Assembly (NCBI GenBank): GCA_026996295.1
Contig: JALWLL010000081.1
Coordinates: 1 to 39,372 of the forward strand
Direction: 5' to 3'
DNA from: Sulfurimonas sp.
Lineage (GTDB): Bacteria; Campylobacterota; Campylobacteria; Campylobacterales; Sulfurimonadaceae
DNA: 39,372 nucleotides
Part shown: positions 4,829 to 22,815 of the stretch, piece by piece
Layout: each line of letters opens with the position of its first letter
Numbering within the stretch: the stretch's first letter is position 1
The notes under the pieces: generated by a model
The model's database searches: none
What the model was told of the DNA's origin: nothing
What the model saw: the letters and a program-made list of their open reading frames with translations, nothing else
Position numbers and translations under genes: made by a program

Positions 4829-4857
4829 CTCTCACTCCAAGTATATTGATGATTTAA

Positions 4858-5295
4858 TTATATAATATAATTAGTCACACGAGCAGTTGCATAAAGATTT
4901 TCTTCTACATCTTTTACAAGAACATCAAAAATAAGTCTTCTTTTTTTTGCTTCATACAGTGATGCCGTTACATAAATATACTTCACATCCATAGTTATGG
5001 CTTTTATGAGTTTAGACTCTATATTGCGAGTCATGTTTTTTGGTGCAATCAGCAAACTAAGTGGTCCAAGAGCATTGTCGATAGCTGCGATTATCATACC
5101 ACCTTGCATAGTAGAGTATGGATTGAGCCACTCTTTTAAAACAGGTATTTTTGTAGTGAGTGTTTCTTTTTCTTTATCAAAAGCAATGATTTCACACTGC
5201 ATAATAGTAAAACTTGGAGGAGGTAGTTCATATTCATGAAATGCATCGCCCAAGACACTACTAAAAAGCTCTTTTATATCTAATGATTTAATCAT
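4858..5295 (-). CDS. PaaI-type hotdog-fold thioesterase
   Basis: A 145-residue single hotdog domain of the PaaI/DUF4442 class, which hydrolyses acyl-CoA or acyl-ACP thioesters in the cytoplasm. The central helix motif is NPYSTMQGGMIIAAIDNALG (about 58-77), with the HGG-like position occupied by QGG, and it is followed by the strands ITMDVKYIYVTASLYEAKKR and VLVKDVEENLYATARV. The ATG overlaps the stop of a 30-codon ORF (ATGA), which suggests translational coupling. Together with the exporter genes upstream it points to handling of an acyl compound, but this is inference from context. Confidence 0.85.
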   Translation of the reverse strand: MIKSLDIKELFSSVLGDAFHEYELPPPSFTIMQCEIIAFDKEKETLTTKIPVLKEWLNPYSTMQGGMIIAAIDNALGPLSLLIAPKNMTRNIESKLIKAITMDVKYIYVTASLYEAKKRRLIFDVLVKDVEENLYATARVTNYII

Positions 5296-5384
5296 TTTGC
5301 ACTATCTCTTTGATCTTCATAGCTTTTGGCTTCTATCTTTTCATCACAGACTTCGATGATTTTCTTTTTTAAAGTAGCTGTCAT
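5292..5384 (-). CDS. Small coupled ORF of 30 residues
   Basis: An ATG at 5384 preceded by AAAAAGGAAC opens 30 codons (beginning MTATLKKKIIEVCDEKIEAK) that end in a TGA overlapping the thioesterase start codon as ATGA. The product is charged and helical with no membrane segment. Its first 18 residues resemble the N-terminus of small GreA/GreB-like coiled-coil proteins (KxKxxxxCxxKIxxK), so it may be the shortened start of such a gene. It may equally serve as a leader that couples translation into the thioesterase gene. The ribosome-binding site and the coupling make translation likely; the function is unknown. Confidence 0.5.
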   Translation of the reverse strand: MTATLKKKIIEVCDEKIEAKSYEDQRDSAK

Positions 5385-5399
5385 AAAGTTCCTTTTTGT

Positions 5400-5795
5400 T
5401 TAAACATTATAAGCTATAAAAGCCAATGATAGCGATAGATATAAGCATAAAGGAGAAAAATAGTTTGCATCGTAAATAGCAAATGGAGTAGATTTGATTT
5501 TTTTGAAAAAGCCTACATAATGAAAATCACCTACTGCCCTCATAGCAAATAAAACAGATAATATAAAAATACTCTCTTGTGCTCGTAAAACTATATAGGC
5601 AAAGAAGAGTAAAACAAATCCGACAATCATAGTCAAAAACTTTCCAGGGTAGAAAATTTTTACCTCTTGTGTAGTTGTTGGAAGTGCCTTATCTAGACCA
5701 ACCTTTCCACCAGCAGCCCAATAAAAATGAATCAACCCTAGTATTGTAAAAATGAGGCTATCAACTGTAAGTATGAAGTTCATTGTCTTTTCCAT
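5400..5795 (-). CDS. DUF3995-like integral membrane protein
   Basis: A 131-residue membrane protein with four predicted helices: about 7-25 (ILTVDSLIFTILGLIHFYW), 55-75, 80-98 and 112-130. The pattern HFYWAAGGKVGLDKALPT in the first loop and FHYVGFFKK before the last helix matches the small DUF3995 membrane family, whose function is unknown. I chose the ATG at 5795 because AAGGAAC lies 7-8 bases upstream; it overlaps the exporter gene by 35 bases. An ATG at 5783 is the alternative. Position in the run suggests a membrane accessory to the exporter, but nothing in the sequence proves this. Confidence 0.78.
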   Translation of the reverse strand: MEKTMNFILTVDSLIFTILGLIHFYWAAGGKVGLDKALPTTTQEVKIFYPGKFLTMIVGFVLLFFAYIVLRAQESIFILSVLFAMRAVGDFHYVGFFKKIKSTPFAIYDANYFSPLCLYLSLSLAFIAYNV

Positions 5796-8061
5796 TGTTC
5801 TGTTCCTTATTTTGTTTTTGAAAAAACAGACTAAGCAATGCAGGCAACAACACCAAGTCAAATAAAAGCGCAATGTTTAAAGCACTCACCGTAACTATTG
5901 CGAAGTTTACATTTGGCACAAAACTACTCACACCAAAGATGGCAAAAGTGACAGAGAGGATGAGGGTTGTGAGTATCATGGCATTGCCGCTATGACTGAT
6001 AATGTAGTCTATACTCTCTTCAAAATTTCGTACCTTGATAGACTCAAAATACTTGCTAAAAAAATGGATGCTATCATCCACCGCGATGCCTAAAATAACC
6101 GCAGCAGATATCGCCACCCCAATATCTACACTAATGCCCAAATACCCCATGATTCCACCTACAACAATGATGGGTGCAATATTTGGGAGTAAAAAGAGCC
6201 ACAACATTTTAAGATTTTTAAAAATAAGCAACATTGTAAACGCAACGATTGCCAAGGTCATAGAGATAGAGAGTATAAGTGTCTCGGTTACACTGGACTG
6301 CATATAGGCAAATATTGCCGTTTGTCCTTGCACAGCAGCACTGTATGGCGTTTCTTTTTTCCAATAATTTTTTATCCACTCTATCATTGCCAAATCTTTG
6401 GAAGTATCGACGATGTTCGTGTTTATGGTTAAACGCAGGTATCGCTCTTGTGTGTCCATCTTGTCGTTGAGCTCCATGCCTTGCGGTAAGCTCATGGAGT
6501 AAAGTAGAAGATACTGCGCAACTAACTTTTTATCATCTGGAAGTGCTGTTTTTGCATCGGGATTGAGTACCTTTTGCATCCTTTGTACTATATCTTTGAG
6601 TGAAGTAGTAAAACGTACATTGGTAAATCTGTTTTTAAATACCTTTTCAAATTCTACGATAGACTCTAAAAATTTCGGATCTTTCACACCCTCTTTTTTT
6701 CCAGAATCCAAGATGATCTCATAACGCATACTGCCGGTGAGATTTTTTTCTATAAACCCCGCTCCGCTTCGTACTATAGTGTCTTTAGAGAAGTATTTGA
6801 TAGAGTTACTATCTACTTTGAGATGAAAAAGTCCGAGAGAAACAAGGACTATCATAACTGCAAAACAGAGCACTATTTTTTTATCATGTCTTTGTATAAA
6901 TGCTCCATAGCCCTGAATATGGGCGAAGTTAAGTATCTGCACCGCTTTGACTTTATAGTCTCTCTTGCGTGTTAGTATAATGGCAGGCACCAAAGTGATA
7001 CTTAACAAAAATGCTAAAACTGCTCCACTTGTGATGGCAATGCCTAGTGTAGAGACAGGCTCTATCTTGCTTACTCCAAGCGTTGCAAATCCAACCGCTG
7101 TTGTAAAAGAGGTCAGTGCCATCGGCACGATATTTGAGCTGAGTGCCTGCGTGAGTGCCTCTTTTGTCTCAGAGCCTCTGCGCTTATAATAGACCCATGC
7201 CAGATAGAGGTGCATCGCATCGGCTATGGCAATGGCGGTGATAAATGAGGGGATATTTACCGTAAAATTATTGAGCTTATACCCTAAAAGCATCTGCAAA
7301 CTAAGCACACTTAAAAAAGTAAAAACAACAACGACAGAGGGTACTAACACACCAAAAAAACTTCTAAATATTAAAAATAAAAACGCTACTACCATCACAA
7401 CAGCAAGCGGCATTAACACCATAGCATCACTTTGTGAGATGGTAACAAGCGAAGCAGTAACGGCGGGGATACCTGTAATGTAGAACTTATAACCGCTTTT
7501 TTGTGACGCCTCTTTGAGAATTTTTTGCAGCTTTTGAAAAACAGCAATATTCACCGCTTCATCGCTTCCTAGTTTATCACTCAAAGAGAGTGCCAACATA
7601 GTTGTTTTAGCGTCTTTTGAGATGAGTTGGTTAAGAATGAGCTTGTCTTTGAGTGCCAATGAGCTTTTTTGTGTAAGGTTTTCATCACCATATAAAAAAT
7701 CCTCTACAATGATGTCATCATCTTCGCTGCTAATGTATTGATAGTTGCTCAGACTCTCAACCTTTCTTACACCCTCTAGCTTCTGAAACTTTTGTGTTAA
7801 TTCGAGTATGGTAGATACTGCGTGAGGATTAAAAATACCCCGCTCATCACGAAAGGCTACGATGAAAGTATCATCTCCGCTAAATCGGCTTCTAAATGCT
7901 TCGTAATCTTTGATGATTTTAGAGTCTTTATCGAACCATATTTTATAACTTCCCTCAAATGCCAAATTTTTTAAAGAAAGTGAAAGCAGTGCCACAAAAA
8001 GAGTAATACCTATGATAATAAAATACTTATAGCTGTCTAAAAAATCTATATATTTTTGCAT
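5761..8061 (-). CDS. RND/MMPL family exporter
   Basis: A 766-residue inner-membrane transporter of the RND superfamily, MMPL branch. It has a TM helix near residues 14-32, a periplasmic domain, five to six helices in the first half (about 205-365), a second periplasmic domain (about 410-590) and the last helix group (about 595-755). The duplicated segments AIAIADAMHLYLAWVY and ILGIAVDDSIHFFSKYF carry the charged residues of proton relay. Such proteins export lipids or other hydrophobic molecules. An ATG at 8061 with AGGAGAG just upstream is preferred to the adjacent GTG at 8064. The preceding two genes supply a periplasmic LolA-like and an outer-membrane partner, giving an envelope-spanning set. 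Confidence 0.92.
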   Translation of the reverse strand: MQKYIDFLDSYKYFIIIGITLFVALLSLSLKNLAFEGSYKIWFDKDSKIIKDYEAFRSRFSGDDTFIVAFRDERGIFNPHAVSTILELTQKFQKLEGVRKVESLSNYQYISSEDDDIIVEDFLYGDENLTQKSSLALKDKLILNQLISKDAKTTMLALSLSDKLGSDEAVNIAVFQKLQKILKEASQKSGYKFYITGIPAVTASLVTISQSDAMVLMPLAVVMVVAFLFLIFRSFFGVLVPSVVVVFTFLSVLSLQMLLGYKLNNFTVNIPSFITAIAIADAMHLYLAWVYYKRRGSETKEALTQALSSNIVPMALTSFTTAVGFATLGVSKIEPVSTLGIAITSGAVLAFLLSITLVPAIILTRKRDYKVKAVQILNFAHIQGYGAFIQRHDKKIVLCFAVMIVLVSLGLFHLKVDSNSIKYFSKDTIVRSGAGFIEKNLTGSMRYEIILDSGKKEGVKDPKFLESIVEFEKVFKNRFTNVRFTTSLKDIVQRMQKVLNPDAKTALPDDKKLVAQYLLLYSMSLPQGMELNDKMDTQERYLRLTINTNIVDTSKDLAMIEWIKNYWKKETPYSAAVQGQTAIFAYMQSSVTETLILSISMTLAIVAFTMLLIFKNLKMLWLFLLPNIAPIIVVGGIMGYLGISVDIGVAISAAVILGIAVDDSIHFFSKYFESIKVRNFEESIDYIISHSGNAMILTTLILSVTFAIFGVSSFVPNVNFAIVTVSALNIALLFDLVLLPALLSLFFQKQNKEQNNGKDNELHTYS

Positions 8062-8070
8062 CACTCTCTC

Positions 8071-9243
8071 CTAAAATGTGTAATGCAGTGCAAGTGTAAA
8101 ACGAGAAGCATTTCCAAAACGGCTCAGAAGTGTGTTATGTGTAGAGCTGTTTATTTGAAGATACTCTCCATTAAGAACAAAACTCTCATAGAGCCTTGTT
8201 TTTAGCGTTGCCTTTATCACCTGCTCATCTTTTTGCATATCTTGTAAGATGCCGACTTTAAGCTCACTGCTTCTGACATCATTCAAACTCATTCGCAAAG
8301 CGACAAAAACATCATTATCATATATCTCTGAAATATCTACATTTTTCAACTTCTCGTTATCACTATAAAGATAGCTGTAGTACTCCCCAAAAAGCGTTAT
8401 ATCAGAAGTGCCTACAACTTCATAAAAACTTTGCTCCACTCCAACACTAAGTTGTGTATAGTCACTCATCTTGATATCATCAAGTAGATCGGTGTAAGCG
8501 AGTTCCGTTTTAAAAATGGTGTCGTTATAGATGATATGTGAAAAGAGAAGGACTTTGTTTACTCTGTAAGCATACTGAGAGAGTGTTGTTGTAGAGATGG
8601 GGATGAAGCTGCGTTTGTTATCATACCCGTGTAGTACAATCAGGCTGGTTTCACTATCAAGGAGCGTATTGCTCACGAGATTTGTTTTGAGATAGAGTGT
8701 CGGTGTGTATCTAGTATCACTCAAATGCAGTGCTTTATCATACTCTAGCCGAAGAGGTGCATACGGCGTGTTATTTGTCGGCAGCGTTATATCTTCTTCA
8801 TAAAATTTTGCACCGACTTCCAAAGAGTTTTCATCAAAATAGCGTGAAATATCCGCACCAAAAGTACCATATTTTGCACTTTTATCAAAGGGATCTTTGA
8901 GATAATTCTTTTGATTGTAAACATCGGCAATATTAAATCCCTCTAGCTCTCCCCAATACTTCACTTTTTTACCTAAACTCACGCTGTAAGCATCGAAATC
9001 TTTGCTAATGTAGAGTTCATTCAGAAGTAAATAACGTCGCTCTTTATACTCATGACTATATAAGAACTCTACATTGGCATCTGTTTGAAAGTAAGCATTG
9101 TCCAAAGTGATTTTGCTCCTTCCATCAGCTACTATCTCATTGCTATAATTGCTATAGGCTATACCTGAAAGTCCAAGCTCTGTTTTTTGCTCAAATGCCA
9201 TCAAAACACCGACAATGCAAAAAAGAAAAAACACCACTTTCAT
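8071..9243 (-). CDS. Putative outer-membrane beta-barrel protein of the exporter operon
   Basis: A 390-residue protein with a Sec signal peptide (VVFFLFCIVGVLMAFEQ) and alternating amphipathic strands throughout, rich in Tyr and Ser, ending in a barrel-type terminal strand FTLALHYTF with aromatic last residue. It is most like DUF1302/alginate-export-type porins found beside LolA-like and MMPL genes, but no diagnostic motif is present. Its ATG overlaps the stop of the preceding LolA-like gene (ATGA), and the exporter gene starts 9 bases downstream, so the three are co-translated. Role as an outer-membrane exit or acceptor for the exported compound is inference. Confidence 0.75.
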   Translation of the reverse strand: MKVVFFLFCIVGVLMAFEQKTELGLSGIAYSNYSNEIVADGRSKITLDNAYFQTDANVEFLYSHEYKERRYLLLNELYISKDFDAYSVSLGKKVKYWGELEGFNIADVYNQKNYLKDPFDKSAKYGTFGADISRYFDENSLEVGAKFYEEDITLPTNNTPYAPLRLEYDKALHLSDTRYTPTLYLKTNLVSNTLLDSETSLIVLHGYDNKRSFIPISTTTLSQYAYRVNKVLLFSHIIYNDTIFKTELAYTDLLDDIKMSDYTQLSVGVEQSFYEVVGTSDITLFGEYYSYLYSDNEKLKNVDISEIYDNDVFVALRMSLNDVRSSELKVGILQDMQKDEQVIKATLKTRLYESFVLNGEYLQINSSTHNTLLSRFGNASRFTLALHYTF

Positions 9244-9986
9244 CGTAAGACTCTTTTTGAAAAGTCTTTTTTAGAGAGATCGGCTTTTATAGCATCACTG
9301 TCCCAAATCAAAGTGCTCTCTTTTTGGTTTTGCATATTTTTTATCACTATTTCATGCACCCTGTAAATACCATGAAGCAAAACATAGTTTTGAAAACTTA
9401 TCTTTTTTAAAACTCTTCCCTGTTTATCAAAGTACTCTCCAAAACGGGCTAAATGCTCTTTTGTATCTATATAAATAATTTGCTTTGAATAACCGCTGTT
9501 TTTATCTTTTGGAATACGCAAAACTTCAAAATATTTCACTCCATCTTTTGTTATTAGCTTTGCATCTTCTGGGTAACTATAGTTTTTATAATTTTGCGAA
9601 GCTATATCTTCATAAGAAAACTCACTCGCCATAAATGAGCCAGATTTATTGCGTGAGCTGATCCGCTTTACTCGTTTGAGTGCAGGCAGATAGAGCCACT
9701 GCTTATCATCACCTCCTATCACTTCATAACTGAGAAGTTTCGTATCTTTTAAATCATTTGGATAAAGAAATACAAGCAAAGATCTGTCACCATCTTCTCC
9801 TTCTAGCTTTTGTATCTCAAGTTTTCTTATGTTTGTATCTCCCTCGGCATTTTTTAAAACCATCGTCGTTTGTGAAATGCTGCTTTGATATCCAGATGTT
9901 TGCTCATATGCCCGCTGTGCAACTTCTTCACCACTTTGTGCTAATAGCACTGCAGACAAACATATAAATATAATGATTTTTTTCAT
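9240..9986 (-). CDS. LolA-like outer-membrane lipoprotein-sorting family protein
   Basis: A 248-residue periplasmic protein with signal peptide (IIIFICLSAVLLAQSGE, cleavage after LLAQ or near). The mature part has the LolA-like half-barrel order: GDRSLLVFLYPNDLKDTKLLSYE, DDKQWLYLPALKRVKRIS and SGSFMASEFSYEDIA, which are the landmarks of the COG2834/LolA_like (PF17131) family that accompanies RND/MMPL exporters. It probably shuttles a lipid or lipophilic product between the RND protein and the outer membrane. It is the first gene of the minus-strand operon and starts 26 bases from an operator-like palindrome. Confidence 0.88.
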   Translation of the reverse strand: MKKIIIFICLSAVLLAQSGEEVAQRAYEQTSGYQSSISQTTMVLKNAEGDTNIRKLEIQKLEGEDGDRSLLVFLYPNDLKDTKLLSYEVIGGDDKQWLYLPALKRVKRISSRNKSGSFMASEFSYEDIASQNYKNYSYPEDAKLITKDGVKYFEVLRIPKDKNSGYSKQIIYIDTKEHLARFGEYFDKQGRVLKKISFQNYVLLHGIYRVHEIVIKNMQNQKESTLIWDSDAIKADLSKKDFSKRVLR

Positions 9987-10009
9987 TATTTACCCCTTAA
10001 AAGTTTAAT

Positions 10010-10055
10010 GTGAACAATGTTAACATATAGAAACTTAAATGTAAACACTGTTTAC
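10010..10055. promoter_or_regulatory. Pair of TetR-type operators in the divergent promoter
   Basis: Two related palindromes lie in the 94-base spacer between the LolA-like gene and the divergent tetR gene: GTGAACAATGTTAAC (10010-10024, one mismatch) and GTAAACACTGTTTAC (10041-10055, perfect 7-base arms). Both fit GTnAACAnTGTTnAC. Their centres are 31 bases apart, about three helical turns, so bound dimers would sit on one DNA face. This is the classic layout of autoregulation plus control of a divergent exporter operon by a TetR repressor. Confidence 0.75.
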
Positions 10056-10080
10056 TTTTGAGTTATGTTAAAATTAGACT

Positions 10081-10740
10081 ATGATTAAACATGAATACCA
10101 TCACGGGAACCTCAAAGAGGAGTTCATAACTATTGCTATGGATTTTATAGCCAAAGAGGATGTGGAAAAACTGACCCTTAAAGTGCTCTCAGATGCAACA
10201 GGAACTTCTCGCTCTGCCATCTATAAGCATTTTAAAAATAAAGATGCCCTTATTGAGACCATCATAGAAAAAGGGTTTGAGAAGTTTGATGTAGCAACAA
10301 CACCCTATCTTCATGATAAGAACAAAGCACTGATTGACAGGTTCTATTTGACAGGCAAGCTCTATGTTGAGTTTGCAAAAAACAATCCAAATCTTTACAG
10401 ACTGCTCTTTGGTAAAAAGTATGCACATATACGAGAAGAGCTTTTAAGTATAAAAGATGAAGACTGCAGCGGTTTTGCAGCGCTTCAAACAACAGTAGAA
10501 GATGGACAGAAGCAGGGCATACTCAAAAAAGAAGACAGTTACAGGCAAGCTATTGTCATCTGGGCAACTATGCACGGCTTGTCTTCACTTATCATCGATG
10601 GTTTTATGGATGTTGAGGAGAGTTATGAAGAGATTTACAACACCCTTTTTGAAACACTCCTTGCTGGAATGGTGGCAAATAAAGTAAAAATCATCTCAAC
10701 CATTCCACTGCTCAACAAACTGCTACAGCCAAAAAACTAA
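10081..10740 (+). CDS. TetR/AcrR family repressor, divergent to the exporter operon
   Basis: A 219-residue regulator. The N-terminal helix-turn-helix (about 10-56) reads LTLKVLSDATGTSRSAIYKHFKNKDALIE, the standard TetR recognition pattern; the HHGNLKEEFI opening is typical of the TetR_C_13/WHG group. The rest is a helical ligand-binding domain (about 75-205) with the WATMHGLSSLIIDG segment common in this subgroup. The start ATG follows the second of two matched palindromes by 25 bases, so it very likely represses itself and the minus-strand operon. The inducing ligand is unknown; the exported substrate or a precursor is a reasonable guess. Confidence 0.92.
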   Translation: MIKHEYHHGNLKEEFITIAMDFIAKEDVEKLTLKVLSDATGTSRSAIYKHFKNKDALIETIIEKGFEKFDVATTPYLHDKNKALIDRFYLTGKLYVEFAKNNPNLYRLLFGKKYAHIREELLSIKDEDCSGFAALQTTVEDGQKQGILKKEDSYRQAIVIWATMHGLSSLIIDGFMDVEESYEEIYNTLFETLLAGMVANKVKIISTIPLLNKLLQPKN

Positions 10741-10795
10741 AACTATTTTAAGTAGATCTCTATCATTTTACTTTTTGCCATAAGGTTTGTAGTAC

Positions 10796-10849
10796 ATTAA
10801 AGCAGTTTATAAATTTAAAGAAATTTATAAACTTTCTTTAGGCTTTAAT
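10796..10849. repeat. Large nested inverted repeat between the two tetR genes
   Basis: The inner part is a perfect palindrome with 13-base arms, AGTTTATAAATTT (10804-10816) and its complement (10821-10833), with the four-base loop AAAG. An outer pair, ATTAAAGC (10796-10803) and GCTTTAAT (10842-10849), extends it to 21 pairs with an eight-base bulge on the right. It follows the first tetR stop by 55 bases. A transcription terminator is possible, though no clean T run follows, and an operator for the second TetR is the alternative. Confidence 0.7.
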
Positions 10850-10884
10850 ATAACTACTTTCAAATGTTATATATAATTTTTAAG

Positions 10885-10908
10885 CTATAATGTTTCTATA
10901 AATTATAG
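10885..10908 (+). promoter_or_regulatory. Probable promoter with inverted repeat ahead of the second tetR
   Basis: The hexamer TATAAT (10886-10891) lies 28 bases before the start codon in a periodic AT-rich stretch, as is usual for sigma-70 promoters in Campylobacterota where the -35 box is weak. It is part of an inverted repeat CTATAAT (10885-10891) and ATTATAG (10902-10908) with a ten-base spacer, which could be a binding site overlapping the transcription start. Confidence 0.45.
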
Positions 10909-10918
10909 GATACAATTA

Positions 10919-11512
10919 ATGGCTAGGATTACTAAGCAAGAGAGAAGAGTAAGTATTATTTTGGCTGCTTTGAAACTGTTTTCAGAAAAAGGTTTTTACA
11001 TCACCACCATTCCGGATATTGCTAAAAAAGTTGGCATGAGTGTCGGGAACTTCTATAACTATTTTACCTCAAAAGATGCACTTGCAAAAGAATTAATTAT
11101 GTATATTTCAGAGTATTTAGGTAAAAGCATTCGAGAAATAAATGATAAAGATATTCCTACAGAAGAAAAAATTTATGAGATAGTCTCTATGTATTTTAAT
11201 ATGGCAGATGAGAGACCTGAAATGATAGAGTATTTTTTAAGGGTTTACCTGTCAAATCGTGAAGTATTTGAAGATGGGTGTGAAGGCATGCTGTGTGTGT
11301 CAGCATTTGTAACAGAGATGATGATGTTTTTTGATAATGGTGTTGAGCGTGGTGAACTGCATAATCAAGACTTTTTTTCTGCTTTTGGGCTCTTTATGGG
11401 GTATCTTGGTGGTATGGTTTTTCTCTTTGGAGAGAAGATTCTTCCAGAACCATTAGAATGGTATAAAGAATCAATTTCGCAAAATATTTACAATGCACTC
11501 AAAACAAGATAA
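10919..11512 (+). CDS. TetR family regulator linked to the hydrogen-sensing hydrogenase
   Basis: A 197-residue regulator. The helix-turn-helix (about 12-56) reads LFSEKGFYITTIPDIAKKVG, followed by SVGNFYNYFTSKDALAKELI, a standard TetR recognition domain. The C-terminal helical domain (about 70-190) is of no recognised ligand class and contains a Cys pair (GCEGMLCVS) that may be incidental. Its 3' end overlaps the small subunit of a cytoplasmic hydrogenase by 20 bases, so the regulator and hydrogenase are made together. I infer that it controls the downstream hydABC operon in response to hydrogen, possibly by contact with that hydrogenase. Direct binding has not been shown by anything in the sequence. 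Confidence 0.9.
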   Translation: MARITKQERRVSIILAALKLFSEKGFYITTIPDIAKKVGMSVGNFYNYFTSKDALAKELIMYISEYLGKSIREINDKDIPTEEKIYEIVSMYFNMADERPEMIEYFLRVYLSNREVFEDGCEGMLCVSAFVTEMMMFFDNGVERGELHNQDFFSAFGLFMGYLGGMVFLFGEKILPEPLEWYKESISQNIYNALKTR

Positions 11513-12398
11513 AAAACCATCTATAATATGGTTTCAAGGGCTTACGTGCAATGGTAACACACACTCATTTTTAAATCTTGAAAATTTGAAAAATCTTTTG
11601 GATAAATTTGAAATATTATCGCATCCATCGCTCCCGTCAACTCAAAATTTTAATACTGTTTTATCATGTACTTTAGAATGTGATATCTTTATCTTTGAGG
11701 GAGCTTATGATCCTCTTATGAAGCGTAATGATACTTTAGTTTCTAAAATTGTAGAGTATTATGCAAAATCTACAAAACATATTATAGCATTAGGCTCTTG
11801 CGCAAGTTTTGGAGGATTATTTAAAGCAAGTGCTCCTGATAGAAACAGTGGTCTGCTTTTTAATGAGCAAGAAAAATCTGGACCACTTCTAAAATATGAG
11901 TCAAAAGTTATTAACATATCTGGTTGTCCTATACATCCTGAGTGGTTGGCATATACTTTACATATGATTGCAAAAGGAAGAGAGGTTGAGATTAATAAAC
12001 TTCATCGTCCTATCGAGCTTTATAGTACTTTAGCACATCATGGATGCACTAGAAATGAGTACTTCGAGTGGAAAGTAGATGCTGATGATTTTGGAGAAAA
12101 AGAGGGATGTCTTTATTATAAACAAGGGTGTCGTGCTCCAATGACTCACTCTTCTTGTAATAAAATACTGTGGAATGAGGTGAGTTCAAAGACAAGAGTT
12201 GGAACACCATGTTTTGGTTGTACAGAACCAGATTTTCCAAGGCAAAACCTCTTTGCTACAAAAACAAATATGTCCATTCCTGAGGATGTTCCAATTGGAA
12301 TTGCTAAACGTAGTTACTTGACGATGGCGGGTATTGCAAAAACATTTCATATTAAACGATTAGAAGGAAAACTCATTGATTACAAAACAGCTGATTGA
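11493..12398 (+). CDS. Cytoplasmic [NiFe] hydrogenase small subunit, group 2 (sensor) type
   Basis: A 301-residue iron-sulfur subunit without Tat signal or membrane anchor, so cytoplasmic. Residues 12-26 read IWFQGLTCNGNTHSF: the second proximal-cluster position is Asn22 rather than Cys, as in cyanobacterial HupS-like group 2a subunits. Other cluster ligands are in LGSCASFGG, SGCPIHPEW, HHGCTRNEY, GCLYYKQGC, SSCNK and CFGCTEPDFP, which give the distal, medial and remaining proximal ligands. Group 2 enzymes act as uptake hydrogenases or as HupU/HoxB-type hydrogen sensors. The TetR gene upstream and the membrane hydrogenase downstream favour a sensor. The ATG lies inside the tetR 3' end; the ribosome-binding site is weak, consistent with coupling. 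Confidence 0.9.
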   Translation: MHSKQDKKPSIIWFQGLTCNGNTHSFLNLENLKNLLDKFEILSHPSLPSTQNFNTVLSCTLECDIFIFEGAYDPLMKRNDTLVSKIVEYYAKSTKHIIALGSCASFGGLFKASAPDRNSGLLFNEQEKSGPLLKYESKVINISGCPIHPEWLAYTLHMIAKGREVEINKLHRPIELYSTLAHHGCTRNEYFEWKVDADDFGEKEGCLYYKQGCRAPMTHSSCNKILWNEVSSKTRVGTPCFGCTEPDFPRQNLFATKTNMSIPEDVPIGIAKRSYLTMAGIAKTFHIKRLEGKLIDYKTAD

Positions 12399-13674
12399 TC
12401 AGATAGAGGGTGAAGCATCTATTTTCTTTGATATAAAGGATAATGTAGTTGACTTTGCAACTATTGCATTTCCCCATTTTCGTGGTATAGAGTCTATCTT
12501 AAAAGGAAAAAATGCATTAGATGCCTTGGTAATTACCCCAAGAGTTTGCGGTATTTGTGGACATGCCCATTTAATGGCAACAGTGCGTGCCATAGAGGAT
12601 GCCTATAAAAATGCAGGTTATCCTATAGAGTTAAGTAAAAAAATTACAATAATTAGAGAATTTACACTTGTAATGGAGATAATTCAAAACCATTTTAAGT
12701 GGATTTATCTGACAATTATTCCAGAAGTTGCTAAGTTGAATAACTCTACTAAAGTACAAACACCTTTAAAGGGTGCCTATGCAGCAAGCATAGCTTCTAA
12801 GGCGATAGCTGTTTTTGCAGGACAATGGCCTCATTCATCCTATATGATACCCGGTGGAATTACAGCAGATCCAACAAATATCGATCTCTTAAAAGCAGAG
12901 TCTTATGTAGATGAACTTATATCTTTTTTTGAAAAGGAGTCTATAGGTGTTTCGCTTGATGCATTTCTCTCTTTTGAATCATGTAAAGACTTTAATACTC
13001 TTAAAAGTGATTTTTCCTATCTTGAAAGTAGTTTAATGAACATAAAAATGAATGAAAAAGGTTTTGCTTATGACAGGTTCTTAGTTATTGGTACACATAC
13101 ATTTTCAAAACCCTCAAAACTAAAACAGACCCGACCATTTAGTATTGACGCAAAATATGTAACGACTGTGGATACTTATTCTCCAGACCAAGCCTCTTAC
13201 GCAAAGAACGCACAATACAAAAATGCCTTTTATGAAACAGGACCGTTAGCCAGAGCTATGGCAGGAAATCTTAAAATAGTAAAAAATATGCATCGTCGCT
13301 TTAAAGACAGTGCTTATACAAGAGTTATGGCAAGAGTATTTGAAGTTGCCACACTGCTTGAACATGCAAAAGAATTATTGTCTGGTATAGATATTTCTCA
13401 AAAATCGTTTCTCAAAAGTGTAGATATTTCAAAAATTACGGCAAGAGGAGTCGGTGTTGTAGAAGCACCTCGTGGCCCACTACTACATACGGTTGATATT
13501 AAAGATGGGCTCATTCAAGAGTATAAAATAGTTACACCTACCCAGTTTAATATTGGAAGTAGCACAAAAACGAACCCAACACCTGCACAAAAAGCTATGA
13601 TGAAAACTACTCAAGATGAAGCAGTTTTTATTTTTCGTACATTTGATGTTTGCTCCGTCTGTACAACTCATTAA
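12376..13674 (+). CDS. Cytoplasmic [NiFe] hydrogenase large subunit, group 2 (sensor) type
   Basis: A 432-residue catalytic subunit. The L1 motif is RVCGICGHAH (Cys58, Cys61) and the L2 motif at the extreme C-terminus is FDVCSVCTTH (Cys426, Cys429), so all four Ni-Fe cysteines are present. The canonical Pro of DPCxxC is replaced by Val. The protein stops right after the final His, so no maturation protease is needed, as in regulatory hydrogenases. ETGPLARAMAG and VEAPRGPLLH are the other conserved landmarks. The start is a TTG at 12376 with AAGGAAA upstream, overlapping the small subunit by 23 bases. Together they form the probable hydrogen-sensing dimer. Confidence 0.9.
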   Translation: MITKQLIDQIEGEASIFFDIKDNVVDFATIAFPHFRGIESILKGKNALDALVITPRVCGICGHAHLMATVRAIEDAYKNAGYPIELSKKITIIREFTLVMEIIQNHFKWIYLTIIPEVAKLNNSTKVQTPLKGAYAASIASKAIAVFAGQWPHSSYMIPGGITADPTNIDLLKAESYVDELISFFEKESIGVSLDAFLSFESCKDFNTLKSDFSYLESSLMNIKMNEKGFAYDRFLVIGTHTFSKPSKLKQTRPFSIDAKYVTTVDTYSPDQASYAKNAQYKNAFYETGPLARAMAGNLKIVKNMHRRFKDSAYTRVMARVFEVATLLEHAKELLSGIDISQKSFLKSVDISKITARGVGVVEAPRGPLLHTVDIKDGLIQEYKIVTPTQFNIGSSTKTNPTPAQKAMMKTTQDEAVFIFRTFDVCSVCTTH

Positions 13675-13771
13675 AATATCCAATACAGTCCATAAATTAT
13701 ATAAGAAATAGATAGTTTAATCTAAATTTAAAAAAAATAATATTTGTTTAAGTTATTCTTTTGTAGCATAG

Positions 13772-13789
13772 TGAATGATTATTCATTAA
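13772..13789. promoter_or_regulatory. TetR-style palindrome immediately upstream of hydA
   Basis: TGAATGATTATTCATTAA holds overlapping inverted repeats (TGAAT/ATTCA and AATGA/TCATT) and resembles operators of TetR-family proteins of the TGAATGA-n4-TCATTCA type. It lies 21 bases before the hydA start codon and just ahead of its ribosome-binding site AGAGGAG (13797-13803), in the 135-base spacer after the sensor genes. I propose it as the site through which the neighbouring TetR protein controls the membrane hydrogenase operon. Confidence 0.55.
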
Positions 13790-13809
13790 GTAAAAAAGAG
13801 GAGTTGGCT

Positions 13810-15045
13810 ATGGCGGATAGAATAGAGGGTGTAAAAAAGCTTTTTACATCTAAAAGTGCACGTGTAGAAACAAATAGAGGTGATGCCCATTATGAAAAAC
13901 TGTTTCAGTTATGTCAGGCAAGAATTGAGGAATTAAAAACACAAACACCATCAAGGAATCGTTTAGATATAGATGATTTACTAAAAGATCAGGGGATTAA
14001 TCGTCGTGATTTTATGAAGTGGGCAAGTGCAGTAACAGGGATGTTGATGTTACCTGCATCATTTACGCCACTAGTAGCAGATGCGGCACTGCTTATGAAC
14101 AGAGCTCCTGTTATTTGGATTGAGCTTTCAGACTGTGCTGGAAATACTGAAGCAATGCTTCGTTCAGATGGACCAAAAATTGATGAAATTCTTTTAGATA
14201 TTATCTCTTTAGAGTTTAATGAAACAATAATGGCTGCTTCTGGTCATCAAGCTGAAGCTCAACTAGAAGATGCAATGCATACTTTTAAAGATAAGTATCT
14301 CCTTTTTGTAGAGGGAGCAATCCCAATGGGTATGAATGGTCAATTTGGTACTATTGGTGCACATGGTGAAACTTTCTATGATCACTTAATGCGTATAAGT
14401 AAACATGCTGCTGCTATTGTTGCAGTTGGCTCTTGTGCTACATTTGGTGGTGTTCCAGCGGCATCTCCAAATCCCACAGGTGCAGTTGGTGTTATGGATG
14501 TTGTAAAAGGAAAACCTCTTATTAATATCCCTGCGTGTCCAGCTAACCCTGCAAATATGGTTGGTGTAATTATTCACTACATTTTGACAGGTCAAGTTCC
14601 TGAGTTAGATTCACTACTTCGTCCTAAATTTGCATTTGGTTATAGAATTCATGATAATTGTGAGCGTCGAGCACACTTTGATGCTGGTGAATTTGTTGAA
14701 GAGTGGGGAGATGAGGGTGCTAAAAACAACTTCTGTCTCTATAAAGTTGGATGTAAAGGTCCAATGACATTTAACAACTGCTCAATCGTGCGTTACAACG
14801 AAGGTGTAAACTGGCCAGTAGGTGTTGGTCGTGGTTGTATCGGTTGTTCTGAGCCAGATTTTTGGGATAAATATGCTTATGAGCGCCCAATGGCAGATGC
14901 AAACATAAAAGCACCTACTGGTGGCGTTGAAAAAACTGTAGATGAGTTTGGTTTGGGACTATTAACAGCAGCAGGTATCGGTATTGGTATTCATGCTGCA
15001 GCAAGTATTTTAGCAGGTAAAAAAGAAGATGGGGGAGAAGCGTAA
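13810..15045 (+). CDS. hydA: Membrane-bound uptake [NiFe] hydrogenase small subunit
   Basis: A 411-residue Tat-exported electron-transfer subunit of the group 1 respiratory hydrogenase. I chose the ATG at 13810 because AGAGGAG lies six bases upstream. A 64-residue leader precedes the twin-arginine motif NRRDFMKW (Arg65-Arg66), as in other Campylobacterota HydA proteins. A C-terminal membrane anchor (GLGLLTAAGIGIGIHAAASI) follows the cluster region. Distal and medial cluster ligands are standard (IHDNC, NFCLYKVGC, FNNC, GCIGC). The proximal CxxC motif instead reads DCAGNTEA (Cys109, Asn112), with VGSCATFGG and PACPANP giving the other two ligands. It passes electrons from HydB to HydC and the quinone pool. 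Confidence 0.95.
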   Translation: MADRIEGVKKLFTSKSARVETNRGDAHYEKLFQLCQARIEELKTQTPSRNRLDIDDLLKDQGINRRDFMKWASAVTGMLMLPASFTPLVADAALLMNRAPVIWIELSDCAGNTEAMLRSDGPKIDEILLDIISLEFNETIMAASGHQAEAQLEDAMHTFKDKYLLFVEGAIPMGMNGQFGTIGAHGETFYDHLMRISKHAAAIVAVGSCATFGGVPAASPNPTGAVGVMDVVKGKPLINIPACPANPANMVGVIIHYILTGQVPELDSLLRPKFAFGYRIHDNCERRAHFDAGEFVEEWGDEGAKNNFCLYKVGCKGPMTFNNCSIVRYNEGVNWPVGVGRGCIGCSEPDFWDKYAYERPMADANIKAPTGGVEKTVDEFGLGLLTAAGIGIGIHAAASILAGKKEDGGEA

Positions 15046-16823
15046 TGGCAAAAAAACACATAATAGTAGATCCAATTACTAGAATTGAAGGTCACTTGAG
15101 AGTTGAAGCAATAATTGATGAAAATAATACAATTGTAGATGCATATACATCATCTACACTCTTTCGTGGAATTGAGACAATTCTTCAAGGTCGTGATCCT
15201 CGTGATGCTGGTCTTTTAGCAATGCGTATCTGTGGTGTGTGTACGGGTACACACTACCAAAGAAGTATAGAAGCAGTTGAAGATGCATTTGATGTGACTA
15301 TTCCTAAAAATGCTCGTATAGTTCGTAACCTTATTCAGGGTGCACTTTATGTTCACGATCACTTAGTTCACTTCTATCACCTGCATGCACTTGACTTTGT
15401 TGATGTGGTTTCAGCACTTTCGGCTGATCCTAAAAAGACTTCAGAAGAAGCTGTAAAATGGGCTGGTGTTGCTGGTACTAACCCTTTTATTGAAGGTGCC
15501 GGACAGTTTAAAGAGATTCAAGACAGAGTTGCTAAGTTTGTGAAGCAGGGTCGTCTGGGAATCTTTGGAAATGGTTACTGGGGTAACAAACACTATAAAC
15601 TTACACCTGAACAGAACTTAATTGGTGTTGCTCACTATCTTAAGGCTCTTGATATTCAAAGAGATATGGCAAAAATGCAAGCTATATTTGGTGGAAAAAA
15701 CCCACACCCTCAATCAATCGTAGTTGGTGGTGTGACTTGTGTTCAAGATATTAAAAACCCTGCACGTATAGCACTTTTTAAGACACTTTTAAAAGAGAGT
15801 ACAAAGTTTATTAAACAAGCATATCTTCCAGATGTTTATATGGCAGGAACTATGTATGCAGATGAAGCGACTGACAGCTCAGCTACATTTACTGCCCATA
15901 AAAAAGGCAAAGGTGTCGGTGGAACCGGTGGAGGTCTGCTGAACTATATGTCCTATGGAGATTTCCGTCTTGATGATACAGGTTTTTACAAGTCTGCGCT
16001 TTTATTTCCTTCTGGTGTTGTTTTAAATGGAGATTTAAGTAAAGTCTATCCATTTGATCCGGCAAAAGTTGAAGAGGATGTTACACACGCTTGGTATGAT
16101 GCCAAAGGCCCTCAACATCCGTATGAAGGTACGACTATTCCTAAATATACCGGCCTAGAGAAAAAAGCAGATGGTATGGCGTATCTTAAAACAGATGAGA
16201 AGTACTCTTGGATTAAGTCTCCAATCTATGATGATAAGAGAATGGAAGTTGGACCTCTTGCGCGTATGGTTATAGGTGTTGCATCTGGACATGAATTAAT
16301 AACGAAGTATGTTACGAATTTCTTAAAACGTGGTAATTTACCAACAGAAGTCCTCTTTTCTACTATTGGGCGTACTGCTGCTCGTGCTATCGAGACTGAA
16401 CTTATGGCTGATGAGATGATGAAGTGGGTAGATGAGTTAGCCGCAAATGTTGCAGCTGGTGATGATAGTACTTGGACAGATTTTGACTTTGATAAAGTAA
16501 GTAAAAAGACAAAAGGTGTAGGTCTTGCAGAAGCCCCTCGTGGTGCATTAGGCCACTGGGTGAAAGTTGAAGATGGAAAAATCTCTAACTACCAAGCAGT
16601 TGTACCATCTACATGGAATGCAGCTCCAAGAGACTATAAAGGACGTTTAGGGGCTTATGAAGCAGCATTGATTGGTACAAAAGTAGCAGATCCAGAACAA
16701 CCTTTGGAAATCATCCGTACAATTCACAGCTTTGACCCTTGTATCGCGTGTGCTGTGCATGTAGTAGATACAAAAGGTAAAGAGCTCGGTGTCTATAAAA
16801 TAGATACACAATGTAGCATCTAA
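15045..16823 (+). CDS. hydB: Membrane-bound uptake [NiFe] hydrogenase large subunit
   Basis: The 592-residue catalytic subunit that oxidises hydrogen in the periplasm and is carried out with HydA by the Tat pathway. The Ni-Fe ligands are in MRICGVCTGTH (Cys63, Cys66) and FDPCIACAVH (Cys566, Cys569). Twenty residues follow the final His (VVDTKGKELGVYKIDTQCSI), the tail removed by the HydD/HybD protease after nickel insertion. Other landmarks are VDPITRIEGH at the N-terminus, VGPLARM and LAEAPRGALGHW. The start codon overlaps the hydA stop (TAATG), which keeps subunit synthesis balanced. Confidence 0.97.
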   Translation: MAKKHIIVDPITRIEGHLRVEAIIDENNTIVDAYTSSTLFRGIETILQGRDPRDAGLLAMRICGVCTGTHYQRSIEAVEDAFDVTIPKNARIVRNLIQGALYVHDHLVHFYHLHALDFVDVVSALSADPKKTSEEAVKWAGVAGTNPFIEGAGQFKEIQDRVAKFVKQGRLGIFGNGYWGNKHYKLTPEQNLIGVAHYLKALDIQRDMAKMQAIFGGKNPHPQSIVVGGVTCVQDIKNPARIALFKTLLKESTKFIKQAYLPDVYMAGTMYADEATDSSATFTAHKKGKGVGGTGGGLLNYMSYGDFRLDDTGFYKSALLFPSGVVLNGDLSKVYPFDPAKVEEDVTHAWYDAKGPQHPYEGTTIPKYTGLEKKADGMAYLKTDEKYSWIKSPIYDDKRMEVGPLARMVIGVASGHELITKYVTNFLKRGNLPTEVLFSTIGRTAARAIETELMADEMMKWVDELAANVAAGDDSTWTDFDFDKVSKKTKGVGLAEAPRGALGHWVKVEDGKISNYQAVVPSTWNAAPRDYKGRLGAYEAALIGTKVADPEQPLEIIRTIHSFDPCIACAVHVVDTKGKELGVYKIDTQCSI

Positions 16824-16834
16824 AGGAGCTTATT

Positions 16835-17569
16835 ATGAAAGCTGGATACAAACAAGTTAAACGGATGACTGGCATGATGAGAAGCATTCACTTTGTGAAT
16901 ATCATCTCAATGATTGTAGCGGTTATAACAGGGTTGTATATTGCAGATCCATACTACCAAGCTTTTATAGCTGAGGATGCAGTAGATAAATATGTGATGG
17001 CATGGAATAGGTGGGGACATTTTATTGTTGCTATTATATTTGATGTAACATCTATCATAGTTGCATACCTATTTTTCTTTTCTCGTTTTGAAAAACCTTA
17101 TAAAAAGGTTATTCCAACAAAGAGAAATATTGTTGAATTTTTTGAGGTTCTTTTAAATTTGCTTACACTAAATCGTCGTAAAAAATTTGATTCAACGCAT
17201 AGTGATAGCTTTAATACTGTCTATTTTGCAATATTTCATCTTCTATTAGCATGGATGCTTTTTACTGGCTTACAATTGTATGTACATGTATTTCCTCATG
17301 GAGATAGCTCTATTGGTGCTTGGTGGCCATGGATGTTGCACCTTGTAACAGACTGGACCCTAGTTGTTTCTTCTTGGATGGTTGGAACTACTGCAACGGG
17401 TGCTAATATTATGGATGTTAGAATATCTCATCACTTAACAATGTGGTTACTTCTTGTATGGGTAGCATTTCACATCTACTACCAAATATGGCGCACTATC
17501 TTCTGGAAAGAGGGAGATATTGCTATTGCTGTAGGTGGTTCTAAATTTATTAAAGAGGATAAAGCTTAG
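16835..17569 (+). CDS. hydC: Hydrogenase cytochrome b subunit
   Basis: A 244-residue inner-membrane di-heme cytochrome b that anchors HydAB and passes electrons to menaquinone. Helices lie near residues 13-35, 53-76, 126-148 and 182-215, with candidate heme His residues in the first (RSIHFVN), second (RWGHFIVAI), third (AIFHLLLAW) and last (DVRISHHLTMWLLLVWVAFHIYYQIWR, of which HH and HIYYQ are family landmarks). The ATG has an excellent ribosome-binding site, AAAGGAG. It lies 11 bases after hydB in the same operon. Length and topology match Wolinella/Helicobacter HydC. Confidence 0.94.
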   Translation: MKAGYKQVKRMTGMMRSIHFVNIISMIVAVITGLYIADPYYQAFIAEDAVDKYVMAWNRWGHFIVAIIFDVTSIIVAYLFFFSRFEKPYKKVIPTKRNIVEFFEVLLNLLTLNRRKKFDSTHSDSFNTVYFAIFHLLLAWMLFTGLQLYVHVFPHGDSSIGAWWPWMLHLVTDWTLVVSSWMVGTTATGANIMDVRISHHLTMWLLLVWVAFHIYYQIWRTIFWKEGDIAIAVGGSKFIKEDKA

Positions 17570-17619
17570 GCTTTACCTCTTACTCCTTCCATTTAAATTA
17601 AAATATTCAAAGGTATATA

Positions 17620-19545
17620 ATGGCATTTGTCTTAGAGATAGAAACTCCATTTACACGAAACTATATTAAAAACTATATTATCAGCATTATAAGAAGATAC
17701 GGCATAAATGCAGTAGTGAAGCAAGATACGCTCAGCATAAAATGTGCTTTTGCATCAGAACATGAAAAACTCCAAGAGTGTCTTGAAGCAATAGCACAAG
17801 AGTTGCCGGCATCTCTCTTTTTTAAATCCTCTAAACATTATGAGATAGAGGGAGAACCAACACAACTGCCTGAAATAGAGAATGAATACCCAGTAAATGT
17901 TGGACTTTGTCCATCTTGCCAAAAAGAGCTTTTTGATGTAAGCTCACGTCGTTACTACTATCCATTTACTTCTTGTAGTTGCTGTGGTGGAAATCACAGT
18001 TTTGTAAGCTCCTACCCTTATAAACGTGTGAATACGTCATTTAAATTTTTAGCACCGTGTGCAAAGTGTCAAGATGAGCAACACAATGTTGGTTTTAGAG
18101 AAACACATGAGATAAACTCCTGTCATGAGTGTGGTGTACCCGTAAGACTTGTCAACAAGACGAGTGAGCGTTATGCAAATGATGCAGGGAGTTTTAGAAC
18201 AATGTTTGAAGTAGCTGCCAAGGCTATTAATGACAATAAAAAACTGTTGGTAAAAACGACATTTGGCTATAGAATTTTTTATAAAGCAGACAAGCTTAAC
18301 CATGACTCGATTCTTTTAATGATAAATGCCTCTAAAATTACAGACCATCTCTCACTTATCACAGAAGAGTATCAAGCACTGTTGAGCATTGAGCGACCAG
18401 TGCTGAATGTTACACTTAAAAATGAGGAACTGAAAGAGGCTACAGGGGTAAATACATCGTATGTGAAGTATCCTGATGAAGGTTTTACTATGCTTTTAGG
18501 TGCAGAGTTGCAAAGACTTGGTGTAGATTATATAGCATATGAGGAGTGTGATGAGAGTTGTGATGCTGATATGCTTATGGATTATGATTTAGAAGTTAAA
18601 ATGCAGAGTGATATGCGAGTCTTTTTAAATAAAGATGATCTTTTTATTGCAGAGGGGCATAGGCTCTCATTTCCTTCACACAATTTTAGTGCTCAATCTT
18701 TAGTGAGTGTAGCACATGGATATGTAGGTTTGCCACGAGGAGAGAAGATGCTTTTTGATACTATGGAGAATTTTGACTCTATTCATGTACACAAAGCAAA
18801 TCTCCTTGAGGGTGTAGAGGAGAAGTTTCATGAAAATCAAAAGATATTTTTGCAAGATGAAGCCTCTTTTCTCTCCGTAATAGCAGAACACAATGCCTTT
18901 GATAAAAAATGTGTGGGTGCTTACTTTGATGAGATACCATCTTTTTTGTACTATGATGGAAAAAATGTCTTAAGAGTTGTCCCACCAAAAGAGTTTGATG
19001 GCTCAAAAATAATTGAAGATATAGCGACTTTGCGTGAGGGCTCAGACAAGCTTATCATAAATTTAGAAAAAAATCTTCCTGATATCTATGCAAAACTTGC
19101 TTCTTTAGAGGAAAAAGAGTCTGTGAAACTTTTTGAAGCTGTTGCGATTTTACTTGGTATTGAAGATGAGTCTATGCGAGGTGTTACGAAAGAGGCGATG
19201 CGCTTTGTCGGTAAGGGTGGTATTCAGATAGATACGCATGTGAGTGACAATCGCTTTGATAATGCTGCGTTTTTAGCAAGTATTATCTCTTATCAGTTGG
19301 CAGGTGTAGAGACATCTATACTTGCATACTCGATTTTTGAGAGTTTTGGAGACTATTTTAATGATATACTTCAAGAGTTAAAAGTAAAAACAAAAGCAAC
19401 AGAGATAGTGTTATGTGGTACGCACTTTGCAAATCAGTCACTCTTTTCAAGAATGCAGCGAAATCTTAAAATGACGCCGCCTCTTATGAATAAAAACTAC
19501 CCAATAGGCAAGGAGAATGCAGTTGTCGGCGGAGTATTCCTCTAA
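17620..19545 (+). CDS. hydE: HydE: HypF-like zinc-finger protein of the hydrogenase operon
   Basis: A 641-residue cytoplasmic protein. Residues about 1-85 resemble a degenerate acylphosphatase-like module. Next come HypF-type zinc-finger pairs: CPSCQKELFD, SCSCCGGNH, CAKCQDEQH and CHECG (about 97-178). A YrdC-like middle part and a Kae1-like C-terminal part (ending GGVFL) follow but lack the clear catalytic signatures found in the HypF encoded next. This matches HydE of Helicobacter and Wolinella, found next to hydABC and needed for hydrogenase activity by an unclear mechanism. The start has the site AAAGG. The 3' end overlaps hypF by 29 bases. Confidence 0.82.
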   Translation: MAFVLEIETPFTRNYIKNYIISIIRRYGINAVVKQDTLSIKCAFASEHEKLQECLEAIAQELPASLFFKSSKHYEIEGEPTQLPEIENEYPVNVGLCPSCQKELFDVSSRRYYYPFTSCSCCGGNHSFVSSYPYKRVNTSFKFLAPCAKCQDEQHNVGFRETHEINSCHECGVPVRLVNKTSERYANDAGSFRTMFEVAAKAINDNKKLLVKTTFGYRIFYKADKLNHDSILLMINASKITDHLSLITEEYQALLSIERPVLNVTLKNEELKEATGVNTSYVKYPDEGFTMLLGAELQRLGVDYIAYEECDESCDADMLMDYDLEVKMQSDMRVFLNKDDLFIAEGHRLSFPSHNFSAQSLVSVAHGYVGLPRGEKMLFDTMENFDSIHVHKANLLEGVEEKFHENQKIFLQDEASFLSVIAEHNAFDKKCVGAYFDEIPSFLYYDGKNVLRVVPPKEFDGSKIIEDIATLREGSDKLIINLEKNLPDIYAKLASLEEKESVKLFEAVAILLGIEDESMRGVTKEAMRFVGKGGIQIDTHVSDNRFDNAAFLASIISYQLAGVETSILAYSIFESFGDYFNDILQELKVKTKATEIVLCGTHFANQSLFSRMQRNLKMTPPLMNKNYPIGKENAVVGGVFL

Positions 19546-21802: not shown

Positions 21803-21803
21803 A

Positions 21804-22361: not shown

Positions 22362-22389
22362 GGAGGTGTTCAAAAAAACTGTGCCTATC

Positions 22390-22698
22390 TTAAGCCTTGA
22401 TGTCTAAAAGCGAGCCAAACATCTCATCTTGCGTTTTGATGGCTGTGACGTTGAGTGCTGTTGCATTTTGCACTGTGATTTGATCGGTGATCTCTTTTGT
22501 AAGGTCAGTTTGGCTTTTGGCTGATCCGTTATCATCTGCCAAACGCTTAGAAGTGCCCACTGAGTTATCAGTAGTGCTGATCACTTTCGTGTCTGTAGGT
22601 ATGAAACCATCAGTATTTACATTTGCAATATTGTTTGCATTTGTGTTCATCAATGTTTGCTGCGCTGCAATAGAAGAGATATTTGATGTTATATTCAT
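22390..22698 (-). CDS. Mini flagellar rod/hook-like axial protein
   Basis: A 102-residue protein that keeps only the two ends of flagellar axial proteins. Residues about 1-32 hold the N-terminal rod motif (MNTNANNIANVNTDGF), and about 66-102 match the C-terminal coiled helix of FlgC/FlgE/FlgG-type proteins (QTDLTKEITDQITVQNATAL, then MFGSLLDI). The two helices would pair as in a rod protein, with a short Ser/Thr-rich linker in place of the middle domain. The start has a strong ribosome-binding site (TAAGGAG). It stands alone with no flagellar neighbours and faces the hydD end. It may be a flagellum-associated accessory subunit; the function is unknown. Confidence 0.72.
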   Translation of the reverse strand: MNITSNISSIAAQQTLMNTNANNIANVNTDGFIPTDTKVISTTDNSVGTSKRLADDNGSAKSQTDLTKEITDQITVQNATALNVTAIKTQDEMFGSLLDIKA

Positions 22699-22777
22699 AG
22701 CTTTTCTCCTTACTCATAAAACAATTATAATCTTAAAGGGGTAAAGGGAAGTTTACAAATCGAAAGTAAGTGATTTT

Positions 22778-22808: not shown

Positions 22809-22815
22809 CAAAAAA

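Follow-up and report, generated by a model that had tools for sequence, protein, structure and literature searches.

We analyzed a 39,372-nucleotide stretch of contig JALWLL010000081.1 from the Sulfurimonas sp. assembly GCA_026996295.1 (the window, meaning this whole stretch), in which a gene for a TetR-family regulator (tetR) overlaps the gene for the small subunit of a cytoplasmic [NiFe] hydrogenase, which in turn overlaps the gene for the large subunit. The analysis suggested, with moderate confidence, that these three overlapping genes may constitute a kinase-free hydrogen-responsive switch, in which TetR very likely acts on the downstream respiratory hydrogenase operon hydABC via an operator predicted from sequence, and in which the hydrogenase pair would, on balance, be the H2 input to TetR. 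The initial annotation had proposed TetR as the output of the sensor controlling hydABC, and this is supported by the gene order, the co-occurrence in 67 of 68 genomes and the predicted TetR-type operator before hydA; we infer the sensing itself and the hand-over of the signal. The genes of the module are as follows.

10919 to 11512, plus strand: tetR, TetR-family regulator of 197 amino acids, the proposed sensor output (Pfam TetR_N, 6.1e-16).
11493 to 12398, plus strand: hydrogenase small subunit (HupS/HuaS-like), 301 amino acids, no twin-arginine translocation (Tat) signal, CxxN at the proximal-cluster motif (open reading frame (ORF); Pfam Oxidored_q6 and NiFe_hyd_SSU_C).
12376 to 13674, plus strand: hydrogenase large subunit (HupL/HuaL-like), 432 amino acids, TTG start, four NiFe cysteines, no C-terminal tail (Pfam NiFeSe_Hases).

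The ORF coordinates reproduce the overlaps given in the initial annotation, 20 bases between tetR and the small subunit and 23 bases between the small and large subunits, while its phrase "fused by overlap" holds for the overlap but not for a fusion, the genes being separate and the wording loose; overlap of tetR with the small subunit gene was seen in 56 of 73 pairs (named loci included, start codons called mechanically). The small subunit begins with MHSKQDKKPSIIWFQG, and sequence and Pfam show no Tat motif on it, as had been claimed for the pair, and the large subunit terminates exactly at its L2 motif DVCSVCTTH with 0 residues beyond, which agrees with the claimed lack of a tail. A second, Tat-type hydrogenase operon had been placed 135 bases on, and this is indeed the distance from the large subunit stop to the hydA start at 13810. 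No kinase or response regulator was found among the scanned neighbours from 9240 to 24015, and only two NiFe large subunits, that of the module and HydB, were found in the window's genome at the threshold used.

The association of tetR with the hydrogenase was measured in a sample of 298 genomes of the class to which Sulfurimonas belongs, using a full-length orthologue with E < 1e-40 for the large subunit and E <= 1e-30 for tetR. Each was present in 68 genomes and both in 67 (Fisher p 9e-65, uncorrected for relatedness), with tetR spread across 29 genera. The initial annotation had asked whether the order tetR, small subunit, large subunit is conserved across Campylobacterota genomes: of the 68 genomes that have the large subunit, 67 carry tetR upstream of it in the same orientation and the remaining locus (G295) runs into a contig end, so this order is not chance. 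Nor was TetR found equally often beside unrelated genes, an outcome named there as counter-evidence, since just 1 of 68 tetR orthologues (in G143) lacks the pair. Among ten named related loci (seven Sulfurimonas, one Sulfurimonadaceae, one Campylobacterales and one Arcobacteraceae), tetR is upstream in nine, and the tenth begins inside the large subunit region. Gene surroundings were examined for 67 loci and the window's own, 68 in all; L039 and L040, duplicates of L044 and L045, were not counted, L042 begins at the large subunit region, L062 ends at a contig end, L066 contains a split small subunit, L095 a stop in tetR and wider gaps, and L110 was also excluded from the alignments. Identity to the window's proteins across loci is 53 to 93% for TetR, about 39 to 88% for the small subunit and about 37 to 87% for the large subunit, and the module is kept while its target differs, HydB being either about 71 to 97% or about 48 to 52% identical. 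A TetR search of 249 genomes of the phylum gave, among the matches listed, none outside the order already sampled. The module was also observed on the plasmid records NZ_CP041407 (Sulfurimonas paralvinellae) and NZ_CP087125 (Sulfurovum mangrovi, L126); on the latter, genes for another hydrogenase large subunit and a cytochrome b follow downstream.

The proposed target of TetR begins with the following features.

13764 to 13769, plus strand: possible -10 hexamer TAGCAT, just 5' of the operator (from sequence; weak).
13772 to 13789, without strand: predicted TetR operator TGAATGATTATTCATTAA (motif discovery; conserved at hydA promoters).
13810 to 15045, plus strand: hydA, small subunit with Tat-like signal, the proposed target (sequence, Pfam).

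A de novo search of 67 stretches of 260 bases located 3' of the large subunit gave the consensus palindrome TGAATGAATATTCATTCA, with an expectation-maximization (EM) score of 429 in comparison to 29 to 35 in three block-shuffled sets (run with fewer restarts). Motifs from this region scored 382 to 429 at widths 16 and 18, while a position weight matrix (PWM) of width 20 gave a different motif with a lower score (150), and width 18 was kept. In the window the predicted operator ends 20 bases before the hydA start codon, and it is the only site in the window's genome with no more than one mismatch to RAATGANTANTCATTY; two-mismatch places numbered 33, fewer than the 55 in the backwards control. 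Across 1.52 Mb of loci, PWM sites of at least 14 bits numbered 119 in comparison to 1 in the reversed sequence, a figure inflated by 18 loci that had been chosen for holding a site. Because the predicted operator would sit between the possible -10 hexamer and the hydA start codon, its position weakly fits repression; position -8 relative to the operator is where TA...T occurs most often, in 16 of at most 70 aligned promoters, which is likewise weak.

It could be argued that some other regulator binds the hydA palindrome and that the linkage of tetR to the hydrogenase genes has a different cause. One tetR-negative genome (G165) with a site at hydA speaks for this, and what speaks against it is that the presence of the site tracks the presence of tetR. 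Per genome with the pair or tetR, an operator at a hydA scored at least 14 bits in 61 of 69 and 10 to 14 bits in 5, and was absent in 3. Sites were found in 70 of 83 promoters before HydB-like matches in genomes with the module or tetR (paralogues of HydB down to 23% identity included), in comparison to 1 of 20 hydA promoters taken from 18 genomes that lack the pair and tetR, the 20 being hand-picked among the large-subunit matches listed rather than random; the hydB region of G129, which has no tetR, was looked at separately and contains no operator site. Genome-wide, the exact pattern occurs in 40 of the 68 genomes with tetR and in 21 of the 230 without it, in comparison to 4 and 13 for the backwards control. 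Like the co-occurrence figures, these operator statistics ignore relatedness. The palindrome is moreover of the TetR type, and S41, G43 and Y46-F49 of the presumed recognition helix are invariant in the TetR alignment, so that we regard a different regulator as very unlikely.

Another possibility is that TetR represses its own operon, from tetR to the large subunit, and that hydABC is not its target. In Sulfurospirillum multivorans, tetR is reported directly upstream of hupSL and is proposed to maybe repress it (PMC5357620; published accounts are cited here from excerpts), and weak sites of 14.5 to 14.9 bits do precede tetR in L077, L090, L102 and L110. Motif discovery on 74 stretches before tetR yielded an AT-rich pattern that was weak and was dropped, scoring 62 to 85 (controls 26 to 38) in comparison to 382 to 429 for the region 3' of the large subunit. 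The operator, moreover, is found at hydA even when hydA is far from tetR (L134, L136, L138 and L142) or divergent from it (L054). Among the 70 hydA sites, 49 lie inside the motif-training stretches and 21 outside, the latter including these distant hydA genes and the second hydrogenase operons of six loci of family f7, each with its own operator site. Autoregulation in place of hydABC control is therefore highly improbable in our judgment, and control of hydABC remains the preferred reading.

The TetR protein shows an N-terminal helix-turn-helix and an all-helical C-terminal domain, as seen from Pfam, from an AlphaFold model (predicted local distance difference test (pLDDT) 86.7) and from a fold search against the PDB, which returned ordinary TetR folds. 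Only TetR_N matches in Pfam, the C-terminal half having no Pfam match. In an alignment of 60 of the 71 available sequences, mean entropy was 0.74 for residues 99 to 173 in comparison to 1.24 for residues 1 to 60, so the C-terminal half is better conserved than the DNA-binding half, and all 60 orthologues have both C121 and C126; residues 111 to 120, just before C121, are poorly defined in the model (pLDDT 54). The nearest TetR paralogues lack C121 and C126 in 6 of 7 cases, and in 4 of these 6 a different cysteine pair lies a few residues off; one paralogue near a sensor locus keeps both. TetR_N, the TetR fold and a predicted palindromic operator at a promoter are shared with the TetR repressors FadR, HapR/SmcR and RutR, which differ from this protein in that here the C-terminal domain is the better conserved one, carries an invariant cysteine pair and is constantly linked to a hydrogenase genetically. 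A recurring tetR-hydrogenase theme, suggested by paralogues (42 to 50%) beside an Ech-like cluster in L177 (G125) and L136 (G225), was dropped because in G061 and G105 the TetR paralogues adjoin mod-like or other genes.

HupUV/HoxBC regulatory hydrogenases work with the HupT/HoxJ kinase and the HupR/HoxA regulator. The module's enzyme resembles them in being a cytoplasmic small-large pair without a Tat signal and with a large subunit lacking a C-terminal tail (0 residues past L2 in 71 of 71 family members and in HoxC), and all 71 large subunits of the family share with HoxC the Ile at its position 62, a position that we take to bear on the gas channel. The differences are that a TetR is linked in place of the kinase and response regulator, with a simple, predicted palindromic operator; that identity to HoxC is 25% and HoxC Phe110 is present in only 8 of 71 large subunits; and that, unlike in HoxB, the proximal motif is CxxN and a Lys (in the window) takes the position of the medial cysteine, so that the HoxB-like cysteine set is not seen. 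An alignment of 37 of 71 small subunits with HoxB shows Asn in 33 members, Asp in 1 and Cys in 3 at the place of the second Cys of the proximal motif, and among the 71 large subunits L2 ends with His 50 times, with Gln 18 times and with Lys 3 times. The HoxJ input domain (residues 1 to 163) had no match in the window's genome at E <= 0.001, the 15 matches to the HoxJ query all lying from residue 164 on; a hupT/hoxJ-type kinase elsewhere in the genome, which the initial annotation had named as a possible carrier of the signal, thus left no trace by this measure. The best PDB match of the large subunit by sequence is 7utd, a Hydrogenase-2 large subunit, which we take to be Huc of group 2a.

From its resemblance to the published huaSL/hupSL loci, the module's hydrogenase probably belongs to the same family as group 2d (HuaSL, Sulfurospirillum HupSL, and Aquifex hydrogenase III / Hydrogenobacter Hup2). 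Naming varies, the Sulfurimonas enzyme being called group 2b in PMC7952632 and huaSL group 2d in PMC12286921. The roles published for group 2d differ from the one proposed here: its function is termed unresolved and possibly regulatory, with detection of the enzyme in Aquifex described as difficult (PMC10052474), the cytoplasmic enzyme has its role left open or is called H2-sensing (PMC4584964, PMC10052474, PMC2628731), or ferredoxin reduction or reverse electron transport is proposed (PMC5357620, PMC4584964). A link of tetR and an operator to hydABC was not found in the excerpted accounts of group 2d hydrogenases, PMC6682613 names no H2-responsive regulator in 12 of its 28 relevant places, and a TetR tied to hydrogenase-based H2 sensing was not found in the titles and abstract openings of the papers listed, with subscription papers and preprints outside this scope.

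The predicted regulon in relatives extends beyond hydABC. Eighteen loci with exact sites away from the sensor were chosen among the matches listed, and in 8 of them the operator lies before hydA, hypB, nrfHA or group-4-like hydrogenase operons. It is found at hydA in L136 and L138; in L134 and L137 it heads a small membrane-type protein (no Pfam match) followed by a CobW/HypB gene; in L135 a 26.1-bit operator precedes NrfH-like and NrfA genes; in L133 it is near a pyridine nucleotide-disulphide oxidoreductase gene; and in L143, L144 and L146 (family f5) it precedes proton-antiporter-type subunits. The start of the L144 large subunit matches NiFeSe_Hases and Complex1_49kDa. In the f5 operons L187, L188, L189 and L190 (G040 twice, G028 and G039), operator-headed antiporter-type ORFs occur together with a small-subunit motif, CNGCD, and with a large subunit that has DPCMSCTAR or DPCISCTER at its end, like those of group 4 hydrogenases; three of the f5 group-4-like operons continue into further redox genes. 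We read the f5 operons, from these sequence features, as likely group 4 hydrogenases. In L128-L131 (f7) the operator is in an intergenic stretch, and a strong operator lies 5' of an ORF for a conserved hydrophobic peptide of 31/32 residues (L128 4056-4151, L129 4102-4197, L131 minus strand from 4056). As a separate observation, the f7 loci, in which a second hydrogenase lies close by, have a layout similar to that described for Arcobacter butzleri hDNRA1 (PMC12286921).

Taken as a mechanism, TetR would occupy the 13772-13789 palindrome, near where transcription of hydABC probably starts, and so keep expression of the respiratory hydrogenase low. In the presence of H2, the cytoplasmic pair would oxidize it and dock on TetR at its C-terminal domain, which is conserved to an unusual degree, perhaps with reduction of C121/C126, upon which TetR would let go and hydABC would be transcribed. 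Repression rather than activation, H2 as the signal, the protein contact and the cysteine step are the parts that we infer, and the cysteine relay in particular is doubtful; the gene coupling, the predicted operator, its placing and the putative regulon are read from the DNA. Only tentatively may one go further and suppose that a [NiFe] hydrogenase and TetR make up a two-part gas sensor, with electrons taken from H2 reaching the invariant cysteine pair of TetR, and that this sensor is the general H2 switch of the class, controlling the respiratory hydrogenases as well as, in relatives, the group-4-like hydrogenases, nrfHA, the hyp genes and the membrane peptide of about 31 residues.

The strongest challenge is that TetR represses hydABC through the operator but answers another signal (a small ligand, redox or metal), the hydrogenase being a co-transcribed working enzyme that feeds ferredoxin, as proposed for Aquifex hydrogenase III. 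This we consider possible but rather unlikely. The four NiFe cysteines are kept in 71 of 71 large subunits, G143 keeps tetR and the operator without the pair, and ferredoxin reduction or reverse electron transport has, as noted, already been proposed; set against this, the co-occurrence in 67 of 68 genomes, with tetR in 29 genera, is closer than a working enzyme needs, group 2d has been called possibly regulatory and hard to detect, soluble H2 uptake activity was not found in Sulfurimonas denitrificans (PMC4584964), and huaSL falls with H2 in Arcobacter butzleri hDNRA1 (PMC12286921).

Published expression data on the H2 response are mixed. With H2, two hynAB sets of Arcobacter butzleri hDNRA1 rose 2.3- to 6.2-fold and nrfA 4-fold (PMC12286921). 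Several observations, in contrast, weigh against the hydrogen-responsive switch. In Sulfurospirillum sp. hDNRA2, hynAB was equal on H2 and formate, which its authors explain by formate itself yielding H2 (PMC12286921), and in Sulfurospirillum multivorans there was no significant rise of hydB transcript with H2, for which the authors suggested a missing H2 sensor (PMC5357620). G143 (L142 7263-10691) keeps tetR with C121 and C126 and the hydA operator while the pair is absent; the three genomes without a site at the hydA examined are G288 (L047 6924) and G191 (L048 7061), where a 24.6-bit operator lies 3' of the large subunit, and G060; the tetR-negative G165 has its site at hydA; and five of the 18 exact-site loci (L132, L139, L140, L141 and L145) are without an evident hydrogen link.

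What is known here is the hydrogenase-based kind of H2 sensor, and what is new is the output architecture and the hydA palindrome. The role of the class's cytoplasmic group 2 hydrogenase had stayed open between sensing and ferredoxin reduction (PMC4584964, PMC10052474), and the predicted operator and regulon make a sensing role testable. If the proposed switch is true, hydrogenase-based H2 sensing works without a kinase, offering a simpler part for H2-responsive gene switches, and the analysis suggests that many bacteria of the class could turn on hydrogen metabolism without the usual kinase relay.

The remaining genes of the target operon and those behind it are as follows.

15045 to 16823, plus strand: hydB, large subunit (NiFe large-subunit family match).
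16835 to 17569, plus strand: hydC, cytochrome b-like subunit (TIGR02125, 89 bits, below the cut-off of 121.5).
17620 to 22361, plus strand: HypF-like protein, hypF and HycI-type protease, after hydABC on the same strand.

HydA scores 21.9 bits for Pfam TAT_signal, just below the cut-off of 22.7, and HydB continues for 20 residues past L2. The HypF-like protein (641 amino acids, window 17620-19545), placed between hydC and the full hypF, has one zf-HYPF finger and a partial HypF_C_2 domain, and relatives of it occur in many related loci. Among the loci from other genomes, L036 (4757-5448) and L037 (11300-12234) contain apparent broken remnants of a membrane or cytochrome gene between the operator and hydA, the L047 operator precedes a DUF4395 gene, and in L142 an antisense pyridine nucleotide-disulphide oxidoreductase gene stands in place of the hydrogenase pair. 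L141 (G129) encodes at 4115-6538 an 807-amino-acid protein composed of a pyridine nucleotide-disulphide oxidoreductase, a BFD-like domain and a hydrogenase small subunit. A second, unrelated TetR gene, at 10081-10740 of the window, is transcribed divergently from LolA-like and MMPL-type transporter genes; GTAAACACTGTTTAC is situated between them in 9950-10080, and this TetR is probably the local regulator of that locus.

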